From IMG/VR virus record IMGVR_UViG_3300037485_001979, positions 107,560 to 171,559 of that record: a stretch of DNA of 64,000 nt, one strand, 5' to 3'. The notes under the pieces are model-generated. The model saw only the letters and a program-made list of their open reading frames with translations, did no database searches and was not told where the DNA came from. Source of the DNA: a virus. The translations under genes and the position numbers were made by a program. This document shows, piece after piece, positions 51,669 to 55,443 of this stretch (position 1 is the first letter of the stretch; each line of letters starts with the position of its first letter).

Positions 51669-52370
51669 TTACTTCTTCGTGCCAGGTTTCCCAGGTGTAC
51701 GTGGGGTGGCCTGAGGCGCTGATTCCGCCTTGAGTTCCTTACCCGTCTTGGCCCCCTTACTCCGCAGGAACTTGACAATGCCATTGGGATCCGTGTCGTC
51801 TTCCTCACAAGATTTCGTGAAATACTCGCTACCACGAATCGCGAAGTCGAGTGCAGTAGAGCCTTTGTTATTTGTCTGATCGACTCTCGCGCCTAACTCA
51901 ACCATGTATTTGACCATCTCGAGTTGGTAGGGTCTCCCAGCAGCCCGCATAAACGGAGTATTACCACGTGAATCCGGGGTCTTCCACCCAGTGGGATCAA
52001 TGATCACACACTTCTTGAACGTCTTGAGATCCCCAAACATGGCGAGATCATTCCACCCATTACATGCCCAGCGACCCAGGTACCTGGGATCCGGAGTCGG
52101 GGTATCCGCCTTGGTGTCGAGAAGAGGGGTCGTCGCTGATAACGCCTGGGGATCCGACTTCAGGAGATCCAGGAGAGCACGGGCATCCCGGTTGTAAATA
52201 CACAACATGGCCGGCGAAGGATAAATCCAGGTATGGGGATACTGCTTGAAATAATCCTCCAGGGTTTTCGTGGGGCGGTTGGTGTCGCGTTCCTTCCATT
52301 CGTAGGAATACGTCGCCGCGGTGACCTCGATTCCGAGGAGGGCGAGGAAAATGAGAATTGATTTCATCAT
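51669..52370 (-). CDS. Secreted ankyrin-repeat-like protein (233 aa)
   Basis: A Sec signal peptide is clear: MMKSILIFLALLGIEVTA, a basic n-region, a hydrophobic h-region and a likely cleavage after VTA. Residues ~125-190 hold ankyrin-type repeats (SRGNTPFMRAAGRPYQLEMV, then VELGARVDQTNNKGSTALDF). A Lys/Pro tail follows. Ankyrin repeats bind proteins; with a signal peptide it probably acts in the periplasm or outside the cell. AAAGGA precedes the ATG. A terminator follows directly. Confidence 0.72.
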   Translation of the reverse strand: MMKSILIFLALLGIEVTAATYSYEWKERDTNRPTKTLEDYFKQYPHTWIYPSPAMLCIYNRDARALLDLLKSDPQALSATTPLLDTKADTPTPDPRYLGRWACNGWNDLAMFGDLKTFKKCVIIDPTGWKTPDSRGNTPFMRAAGRPYQLEMVKYMVELGARVDQTNNKGSTALDFAIRGSEYFTKSCEEDDTDPNGIVKFLRSKGAKTGKELKAESAPQATPRTPGKPGTKK

Positions 52371-52398: not shown

Positions 52399-53382
52399 TT
52401 AGGACGGGGTTTCTTCATAAGGCAAGGCATCGGCGCCGCCATGGCCGTTCTTGCACGTGAAGCCACTTGGGCTCCAGAACTGGGGGCTCCAACACCGGCA
52501 ACACAAGGCAAGACGGATTTGGGAACGCTGGCTTACCGGGACACATCTACCAAATTCATCATCAATAACGACTGCCTGAGCTGTCTTCATTCGTACGAGT
52601 TCTTCCTGGTTGCAATGCGTGTAACCAATCGATAACTCGTTTTCATCCGCACTCGCTTTACAGAGTCTACCAAGGATGGGGTGTTGTGCCCTCACCACGT
52701 AGACCCGGGACAACAAGGGCACCCCATAGATCTCGCCAACACTGGGGGGTGACACGGGAGTGCCATCTCCGGCATCAGGGGCCTCCCATCGGGCTCCCAG
52801 CCCCTTAGTCAGCACGGCTACCTCGATCTTCTTCAGAACGTAATCCACGGCTGCCTTGAGGGTGCTCTCACAGGCCCCGAATCTGCGGTCATCTGACATG
52901 CCGTCAACACGAACACTCCAAGTCTTGCCAACGGGGTCATAGCCAAACTCAACCATGAAATAACCCTTGAGGCCATCAACAGCCGTGAACATGGCCGCAA
53001 GGGCGTCATCAGCGGAGTGCTCCTTGCAGTAGACCCCAAGTCGAATCCTGGATTCCAGGTTGGGGTTGGATTCTACCCCCAGGGAATCGAGAATACGGTG
53101 GAGCCCGTCCACAGAGGCGAGATGGGACTCCCTGGATTGATCCTGCTGAGCCCTCACCATTTTCGTTTCCAGGGCATTCGAGGCCTGGGAGGGTGGCTTC
53201 AGACCCCAACCCAGGAAGTCGATGCTGGAAACGCCTAGAATCGCGGCGGCGAGGGCTTCGATGCCACTGGGATGAGGAAGTAGGGACCCCGGGGCTGCGG
53301 CGAGTTCGAGAACACTGCGGGGAAGGTGGATCTCGGTGCCATTGTAGAGTTGGAAATAGGCGAAGCGGGAGTCTGAGTTCAT
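52399..53382 (-). CDS. Hypothetical protein with C-terminal Cys cluster (327 aa)
   Basis: The start MNSDSRFAYF at 53382 makes ATGA with the gene upstream; 68 upstream in-frame codons were rejected. The C-terminal 35 residues hold LCCRCW...FTCKNG, a probable zinc ribbon. The middle has two similar alpha/beta segments. No recognised family. Confidence 0.6.
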   Translation of the reverse strand: MNSDSRFAYFQLYNGTEIHLPRSVLELAAAPGSLLPHPSGIEALAAAILGVSSIDFLGWGLKPPSQASNALETKMVRAQQDQSRESHLASVDGLHRILDSLGVESNPNLESRIRLGVYCKEHSADDALAAMFTAVDGLKGYFMVEFGYDPVGKTWSVRVDGMSDDRRFGACESTLKAAVDYVLKKIEVAVLTKGLGARWEAPDAGDGTPVSPPSVGEIYGVPLLSRVYVVRAQHPILGRLCKASADENELSIGYTHCNQEELVRMKTAQAVVIDDEFGRCVPVSQRSQIRLALCCRCWSPQFWSPSGFTCKNGHGGADALPYEETPS

Positions 53383-53789
53383 GCGGCCTCCAGGCACTCG
53401 TAACCAATGCTTTGAATCGCATCGTAGTTTTCTGAAATCCAGAGAACCAGGCCACCCAGACTGGGTGGGTAGCCCTGCACCATGATGGCCCCTAGAATGG
53501 GGTACACCCCATTGCATCGCCATCGACCCGTGAGAACGAGATCCTTCGTGCCGTCTTCGCGATCCTCTACCACAACCCAGTACCACTCATCGGCCCACCT
53601 GGATCTCGGTATTCTCACCTGGACATGCTTGTCCTCACTGAACCGATTACCCGTGACCTCGACTCGATTATCCAGGTTGGCAAGGATGGAACCCCCGATG
53701 CCGTGAACACGGAGCTCATGAACACTCCTGGTGACCACATAGGGTACCAGATCAAGAGTAAGACTGAGTTGTCTGGGGTTCGTGGTCAT
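53379..53789 (-). CDS. Hypothetical protein (136 aa)
   Basis: Beta-rich product (QLSLTLDLVPYVVTRSV; WYWVVVEDREDG) ATGA-coupled to the prepilin-like gene upstream. No recognised family. Co-translation with an exported pilin-like protein suggests linked expression, not necessarily function. Confidence 0.6.
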   Translation of the reverse strand: MTTNPRQLSLTLDLVPYVVTRSVHELRVHGIGGSILANLDNRVEVTGNRFSEDKHVQVRIPRSRWADEWYWVVVEDREDGTKDLVLTGRWRCNGVYPILGAIMVQGYPPSLGGLVLWISENYDAIQSIGYECLEAA

Positions 53790-54109
53790 CGCGTCACCTC
53801 GGCTTCACAGCGCAGGACCCCTGGGGCCGTCGCCGATGGTGAGACTTGGGCGAACCCGTATTGGAAGGCACGTAGCCACTCCTGACCGGTCTTGGTGTCT
53901 GTGATGAGAAACACTGGGTTATTGCCGAACCCCCCTTCGAGAACCTTGGTTTCGATGAAACGTGGGGGCTTCACTTGGGGTGTATCAGCTTTGGAATCTG
54001 ATGCCCCCCGGGTATATGCCTGGCCCAGGAACCCTAGAGCACAGACCACAAGAAGCACAGCAATCACGATAAATAATTCGATGAGTGTAAAGCCTGATGT
54101 GGATTTCAT
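53786..54109 (-). CDS. Type IV prepilin-like (pseudopilin) protein (107 aa)
   Basis: The N-terminus MKSTSG-FTLIELFIVIAVL is a textbook class III (prepilin) signal: short basic leader, cleavage after G6, Phe at mature +1, Glu at +5, then ~20 hydrophobic residues. Such proteins are cleaved and N-methylated by the host PilD peptidase and inserted in the inner membrane or assembled in type IV pili or type II secretion pseudopili. The 75-residue C-terminal domain is unrecognised. It could interfere with host pili. Confidence 0.82.
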   Translation of the reverse strand: MKSTSGFTLIELFIVIAVLLVVCALGFLGQAYTRGASDSKADTPQVKPPRFIETKVLEGGFGNNPVFLITDTKTGQEWLRAFQYGFAQVSPSATAPGVLRCEAEVTR

Positions 54110-54117
54110 TGGATTCC

Positions 54118-54267
54118 CTAGCGTTGATGGCGTTTCTTGTCTTTGGACCGCTTCTTACGCAGAGCGCGGGCCTTCTCGCGGGTGTCTCGTTTCGGTGGGC
54201 CACCCATGCGCCCACTGAAGGGGTTATCGTATGGGGTTAAGAGGTTTTGGATGACGTGTTCAGACAT
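54118..54267 (-). CDS. Very basic small protein (49 aa)
   Basis: Short frame with AAGGAG before its ATG at 54267. The second half is almost all Lys/Arg (REKARALRKKRSKDKK), typical of nucleic-acid-binding micropeptides. Function unknown. Confidence 0.6.
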   Translation of the reverse strand: MSEHVIQNLLTPYDNPFSGRMGGPPKRDTREKARALRKKRSKDKKRHQR

Positions 54268-54312: not shown

Positions 54313-55443
54313 TCATGCGCTCTCCTGGAGGAAGCGTTGACGTGCGGATTCGATTTTGGCGACTATGCCTTCTTTGCCCTGGGTGCCATCGAGGAGATCC
54401 AAGGCGAGACCATGTGCTCTGGGGTCATCCTCGGGTTTCAGGAACCCGGAGACAAACGTGGAGATCTCGGGGACCCCCTCGGCGGCCACACTGGGATCAA
54501 AGGTGATCTCGGCCTTCTGGGATCCCGTGAACTTGGAGACCACGAAGACGTCTGACTTCGCTGCTTTGATGACGTCGCCAATAATCTCGGGTGCCGAGAC
54601 AATCGAGTTGTCATAAGTAATATAAATCACCCCTGGCAACTTGGTGACTTCCTGGTTGGCGTCGGCGTGTTTGATGAACTCCCGAATCGAGGGTAGAAGC
54701 CCTTGGGAGTTCTCTAGGGTCATCGCGAACTGACAGATCGAACGGGAACGAATCGGGACTCGCTCGAAGACACCACCGGGGTGACGAAGCAATACCGACT
54801 TGGGGTGCCGGGCCTCATTGATCGATCGGGTTGTCATCGCCCCGGTGTAGCCAGCCCAACGAGTCCCGGATCGGGGACCACCCCAGGGTTCATGGATATC
54901 CGACATCACGATGTCGCCGGCTAACTCGGGAACCCAGTCGAGGTCCAGACTCCAGCAGCCCTCGATGTCCAGGTACTGCTTACACGCCTGGTGCATGACG
55001 ATGACTTCACTGGGGACCCCATTGGAACCCACCTCGGCCAACTTAGCCGCGAGGTCATCCCGTGACGTGTAATCGAAGGCACGGATAGCCGTACCCGAGA
55101 TCTCACGGAGCTGGCCATCCCCGATCCAGTGGGCGTCCCCGGAGACCGCTTGGCCCCAGGACAACACACGCTTGTCGTGATTGCCCTGGATGAAGGATAC
55201 CGAGGTGCCCTGCGCAAGAGCTCGCTCCACGAAGTCCCGGAACTTGTAGACCAAGGCGGGGTGAGGATCCGGAGAATCAAAGATATCACCGGGGAGAATG
55301 AGGTCCCGGATTCCCCGAGACTTGCAGACCTCGAGGATCTCAGACAACCCGAGATCACTGTCACCTGTGATCTCTCGGCGAGACTCCCAGATCGTGAAAG
55401 AGAGGTGTAAATCACCAATGAAAGCGATGGTAGAAGGTGCCAT
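54313..55443 (-). CDS. sbcD: SbcD/Mre11-like DNA nuclease
   Basis: Metallophosphoesterase nuclease subunit of SbcCD. Motifs are D11-L-H13 (GDLHLS), GDIFDS with D53, GNHDK with N88/H89/D90, and downstream VMHQ and SDIHEPW supplying further metal ligands. 376 aa is near E. coli SbcD (400). The start at 55443 has AAGGAG. The ATPase partner is at 38636-41044. Together they resect ends and open hairpins. Confidence 0.88.
   Translation of the reverse strand: MAPSTIAFIGDLHLSFTIWESRREITGDSDLGLSEILEVCKSRGIRDLILPGDIFDSPDPHPALVYKFRDFVERALAQGTSVSFIQGNHDKRVLSWGQAVSGDAHWIGDGQLREISGTAIRAFDYTSRDDLAAKLAEVGSNGVPSEVIVMHQACKQYLDIEGCWSLDLDWVPELAGDIVMSDIHEPWGGPRSGTRWAGYTGAMTTRSINEARHPKSVLLRHPGGVFERVPIRSRSICQFAMTLENSQGLLPSIREFIKHADANQEVTKLPGVIYITYDNSIVSAPEIIGDVIKAAKSDVFVVSKFTGSQKAEITFDPSVAAEGVPEISTFVSGFLKPEDDPRAHGLALDLLDGTQGKEGIVAKIESARQRFLQESA

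Follow-up and report, generated by a model that had tools for sequence, protein, structure and literature searches.

The locus and its gene neighbourhood

The window, which is the whole stretch of 64,000 nucleotides analysed here, belongs to a 171.6-kb (171,559-base) tailed-phage contig from IMG/VR. We found that it encodes a terminase, a DNA polymerase, a DnaB-like helicase, a Dda-like helicase, an SbcC-like subunit and RuvB, with a further UvsX-like match, and these terminase, polymerase, helicase and recombination genes indicate a tailed phage. The phage is remote from those described, since its terminase is 21–29% identical to the best listed matches and its polymerase about 22–24% identical to those of described phages. 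The phage RuvB (20849–21817, minus strand) has both the P-loop and the C-terminal winged-helix domain. No tRNA genes were found in the window or in the remainder of the record. The features around a small prepilin-like ORF are as follows.

54313–55443, minus strand: SbcD-like metallophosphoesterase, the conserved gene upstream of the prepilin-like gene (Metallophos; PHROG SbcD-like; 90–93% identical in relatives; start set from homologues)
54115–54119, minus strand: AGGGA, ribosome-binding-like, 5 bases before the ATG of the 107-aa ORF (sequence)
53786–54109, minus strand: candidate mini-prepilin gene, 107 aa (ORF and translation; N_methyl over cut-off; homologues in contigs L002 and L003)
54092–54109, minus strand: leader MKSTSG, predicted prepilin-peptidase cut after Gly6 (sequence; Ala at −1 in relatives)
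54014–54091, minus strand: FTLIE and hydrophobic helix, residues 7–32 (FTLIE invariant through synonymous change; helix 9–37 in the model)
53789–53962, minus strand: C-terminal domain, residues 50–107, a family of its own (73–77% identical in relatives; no Pfam or PHROG match)
53379–53789, minus strand: 136-aa ORF, ATGA overlap with the prepilin stop (ORF list; no Pfam match)
52399–53382, minus strand: MNSDSRFAYF protein, conserved downstream gene (37–47% identical in L002 and L003)
51669–52370, minus strand: ankyrin-repeat protein with an export-signal-like N-terminus, judged by eye (Ank_2 and Ank_4; 66% identical in L003, no L002 match)

Homologues of the 107-aa protein were found in two IMG/VR contigs, L002 (75 kb) and L003 (216 kb), so that three close members are known. 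All three carriers have the same gene order, namely the SbcD-like phosphoesterase, the prepilin-like gene and the MNxDSRFAYF protein. In L002 and L003 both junctions of the prepilin-like gene are four-base ATGA overlaps; in the window it is flanked by a possible 52-aa ORF upstream and the 136-aa ORF downstream, the latter having no neighbouring counterpart in L002 or L003. A further pair of relatives, more distant (terminase 49% and phosphoesterase 31% identical), share the same backbone genes and carry a 510-aa ORF immediately after the phosphoesterase, in the prepilin slot; the prepilin-like gene was not found in these two records, which may be fragments. Because that slot is otherwise occupied in the distant relatives, the gene appears to be accessory. 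A weak N_methyl match in record G004 lay in an antisense ORF and was rejected.

The N-terminal signal, the head domain and their conservation

The translated product of 53786–54109 (minus strand) is MKSTSGFTLIELFIVIAVLLVVCALGFLGQAYTRGASDSKADTPQVKPPRFIETKVLEGGFGNNPVFLITDTKTGQEWLRAFQYGFAQVSPSATAPGVLRCEAEVTR, and its N-terminus reads MKSTSG/FTLIELFIVIAVLL..., the slash marking the predicted cut. The six-residue leader contains Lys2 and ends in Gly6 at −1, Phe and Glu stand at +1 and +5, and about 20 uncharged hydrophobic residues follow Glu+5. A class III signal combines a short charged leader, the last residue of which is Gly or Ala, with a hydrophobic +1, Glu+5 and a hydrophobic stretch, and the preliminary description, which had read such a signal from Gly6, Phe+1, Glu+5 and ~20 hydrophobic residues, was borne out by the profile searches. 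The ORF passed Pfam N_methyl (PF07963) narrowly, at 21.5 bits against a cut-off of 21.2 (E 1.6e-4), passed NCBIfam TIGR02532 at 18.8 against 16.3, and gave the sole N_methyl match in the whole 171,559-base record (E 1.2e-5 genome-wide). A strict prepilin pattern matched a single ORF of the window, the 107-aa one, and did not match in any of 200 random windows, which were generated by a first-order Markov model with the dinucleotide make-up of the real window. Prepilin peptidase accepts Gly or Ala before the cut, and E or D at +5 serves assembly (PMC3244431). Two other readings of the N-terminus were set aside: a lipoprotein was rejected by eye, as no lipobox residue precedes the Cys of the membrane segment and this Cys is absent from the homologues; the conserved Glu where the hydrophobic stretch begins makes a plain Sec signal peptide unlikely in our judgement.

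The naming of the product as type IV prepilin-like proved largely right, and the wider interpretation was supported in part: the signal stood, and no family profile matched past the N-terminal helix. A full-length profile aligned with solved pilins from the first mature residue (best match 6xxd, PilA, E 2.3e-4), and most of the other solved-pilin matches were restricted to the N-terminal helix. Residues 50–107 matched no Pfam or PHROG family, and no second copy of this head domain was found in the records of the three carriers. Structure prediction, as proposed in the preliminary description, gave AlphaFold models that disagreed with each other: the whole 107-aa protein was modelled as a helix and four strands (pLDDT 57), and the head domain alone took a different layout (pLDDT 53). 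The helix of the whole-protein model spans residues 9–37, with pLDDT 84 in block 11–20 and 71 in block 21–30. Structure searches with this low-pLDDT (57) model returned no credible fold match; matches to de novo beta-trefoils and to phage RNA polymerase were at chance level.

The two homologous proteins are 61–64% identical to the window protein. Their N-termini are MKSA/FTLIE and MKSSA/FTLIE (L002 and L003, respectively), so the signal is kept in both, and its absence from related phages, one half of the refuting condition set in the preliminary description, was not observed. The −1 residue is Gly in the window protein and Ala in both relatives, and FTLIE is identical in all three proteins despite synonymous differences in four of the five codons. 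Between the window protein and L002/L003, the membrane segment outside FTLIE is 37–42% identical and the linker 31%. Across the gene dS reached 1.8–5.4, which is saturated or nearly so, and dN was 0.33 with saturated dS, indicating purifying selection on the 107-aa frame; in the three carriers the gene evolves much faster than the neighbouring phosphoesterase. The preservation of FTLIE through synonymous change, beside a variable membrane segment and a −1 position holding only Gly or Ala, shows that the class III signal itself is under selection, beyond simple membrane anchoring. Because Glu+5 would not be expected to persist in a plain anchor, we take it as most likely that a prepilin peptidase recognizes the signal; an assembly platform may do so too. 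A gammaproteobacterial MAG (L004) was not accepted as a relative, since what matched there was an ordinary pilin, and only in its N-terminal part.

Prepilin-like proteins in other phages

The preliminary description had started from the view that phages usually attack pili rather than encode pilins; a premise that they lack pilin genes is too strong in view of the PHROG 3433 family ('pilin') and of cultured Synechococcus, Vibrio and Aeromonas phages. Phage-encoded prepilin-like proteins are not unique to the window's phage and recur in phage records; a literature search for such prepilins found no paper. A pattern of GFTLIE followed by a hydrophobic stretch matched at least 120 IMG/VR stretches, many of which were ORFs carrying the motif close to the N-terminus, and a generic pilin N-terminus used as query found nothing in the phage collection, probably through low-complexity masking. 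Vibrio phage 033B carries a prepilin-like protein, and in Aeromonas phage GomatiRiver_11 the motif is internal to a longer annotated ORF.

The NGMTE family comprises mini-prepilins of 75–95 aa (NGMTE..RC..DEFGKGVKC), and one member, UTS52068.1, comes from the cultured phage BUCT-ZZ01 of Synechococcus elongatus; a control genome of this species gave N_methyl, Peptidase_A24 and T2SSE matches. With the C-terminal domain alone as query, 55 loci of the family were recovered, and the N-termini were read in 54 of them, representing 42 distinct proteins (L155–L208; L142 2390–2641 also listed). By reading, Gly, a hydrophobic +1 and Glu+5 are kept in 41 of the 42, the sole exception (L176) having Gln at +5. 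A stricter scripted pattern labelled 32 of the 42 as signal-bearing; nine of the ten unlabelled proteins have Met, Tyr, Val or Ile at +1, Ser at +2/+3, or merely another choice of start codon. Homology of the NGMTE head domain to the window's C-terminal domain was rejected (hhalign probability 0.6%).

We also observed prepilin genes of ~130–155 aa with strong N_methyl matches arranged in tandem, two to four per cassette (L024 5747–7108, L030, L054, L105 1–1240 and L123). The contigs of L054, L105 and L123 have a terminase and no pilus motor above cut-off, and so seem to be phages that themselves encode several prepilins, a case that may be more novel than the 107-aa gene. One record filed as phage, L145 (CAKLQH020000003.1, Acinetobacter phage MD-2021a), carries pilY1, ppdD, rpsP, rimM and trmD and so contains bacterial chromosome; its ppdD, adjoining rpsP, rimM and trmD, is evidently chromosomal and was left out.

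Proposed role and comparison with known systems

In the three carrier records we found no match to Peptidase_A24, and for the pilus motor family (T2SSE) sub-cut-off P-loop matches only. A pilus machine of the phage's own was rejected, as no Peptidase_A24 was found and the T2SSE match in G000 is sub-cut-off and lies inside the Dda-like helicase ORF. Since neither a prepilin peptidase nor a pilus motor turned up in these records, the machinery must come from the host if the signal is used.

We tentatively favour, at somewhat less than even confidence, an accessory phage mini-prepilin that is cut by the host, docks into a type IV pilus or pseudopilus machine, and alters or blocks the filament. 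The protein would be inserted in the host inner membrane with its short leader inside and its C-terminal domain in the periplasm, and the host prepilin peptidase would cut after Gly6 (Ala in the relatives). Via Glu+5 the mature protein could then dock into the host type IV pilus or pseudopilus assembly machine, where its short, non-standard head would most likely make it a dominant minor pilin or cap, altering or blocking the filament during infection. A possible benefit is the exclusion of other pilus-dependent phages, given that certain other phage proteins are able to disable type IV pili (PMC11436027). We favour filament entry on the N_methyl and TIGR02532 passes, the invariant FTLIE, Gly or Ala at −1 and the solved-pilin profile matches, together with the lack of Peptidase_A24 or a real T2SSE in the three records, the retention of the signal in the NGMTE family and the existence of pilus-blocking phage proteins; the absence of mature Pro22 from two of the three homologous proteins, the small number of close members known (three) and the disagreement of the head-domain models count against it. 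Processing, location and engagement with a filament machine are what we infer from these observations, and our view of which machine is entered and what the phage gains is speculative.

Nearly as good, and a real possibility, is that the signal provides an export route and anchor only: the peptidase would trim the protein, and the C-terminal domain would work in the periplasm with no filament entry, its target being, for instance, an envelope enzyme or the DNA of an incoming phage. It agrees with the C-terminal domain being the best conserved long part (73–77%) while resembling no pilin family, and with a second probably exported protein, the ankyrin-repeat protein, lying nearby in the window and L003, but a mere anchor does not need the invariant Phe+1 and Glu+5. 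Entry not into a pilus but into the host's type II secretion pseudopilus, by which secretion would be redirected or blocked, is improbable, for although pseudopilins have the same signal and weak N-terminal matches to GspH and GspG were obtained, there is no pseudopilin-specific feature and no equivalog cut-off was reached. Least credible is a coincidental motif in an ordinary small membrane protein on which no prepilin peptidase acts, which would suit the barely sufficient N_methyl score and the L003 homologue's score under the cut-off, but not the lack of a comparable ORF in any of the 200 random windows, nor FTLIE kept despite saturated synonymous divergence with −1 changing only from Gly to Ala.

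If the favoured reading of filament entry is right, phages could change pili by an added subunit rather than by motor inhibition, with a bearing on superinfection exclusion, twitching and natural transformation. As a broader and rather doubtful proposal, many unrelated tailed phages may independently carry mini-prepilins, made of a class III signal and a lineage-specific head, that hosts process and build into pili or pseudopili as phage-made minor subunits, a general route of filament reprogramming. Phage proteins whose C-terminal domains are unrelated share the signal, and one of them belongs to a cultured cyanophage with a genetically tractable laboratory host, which makes the idea of filament entry directly testable.

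Like type IV pilins and pseudopilins (PF07963, TIGR02532), the window protein has a class III signal with the cut-site residue, Phe+1, Glu+5 and a hydrophobic N-terminal helix; unlike them, it has a short head (mature protein 101 aa) that matches no pilin or pseudopilin family, and is encoded by a phage in which no assembly genes were found. With PHROG 3433 ('pilin'; moron, auxiliary metabolic gene and host takeover) it shares phage origin and a prepilin-type N-terminus; the match covers profile positions 17–76 of 127, the N-terminal part only (E 0.0012), which does not place it in the family. The NGMTE family (UTS52068.1 of BUCT-ZZ01) likewise consists of small phage proteins with a class III signal and a short head, whereas its head domain is unrelated. 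Gp05 of phage D3112 and Aqs1 of DMS3 have in common with the window protein the proposed change of host pili during infection. To our knowledge, neither has a pilin signal. Both are tied to inactivation of the PilB motor (PMC11436027).
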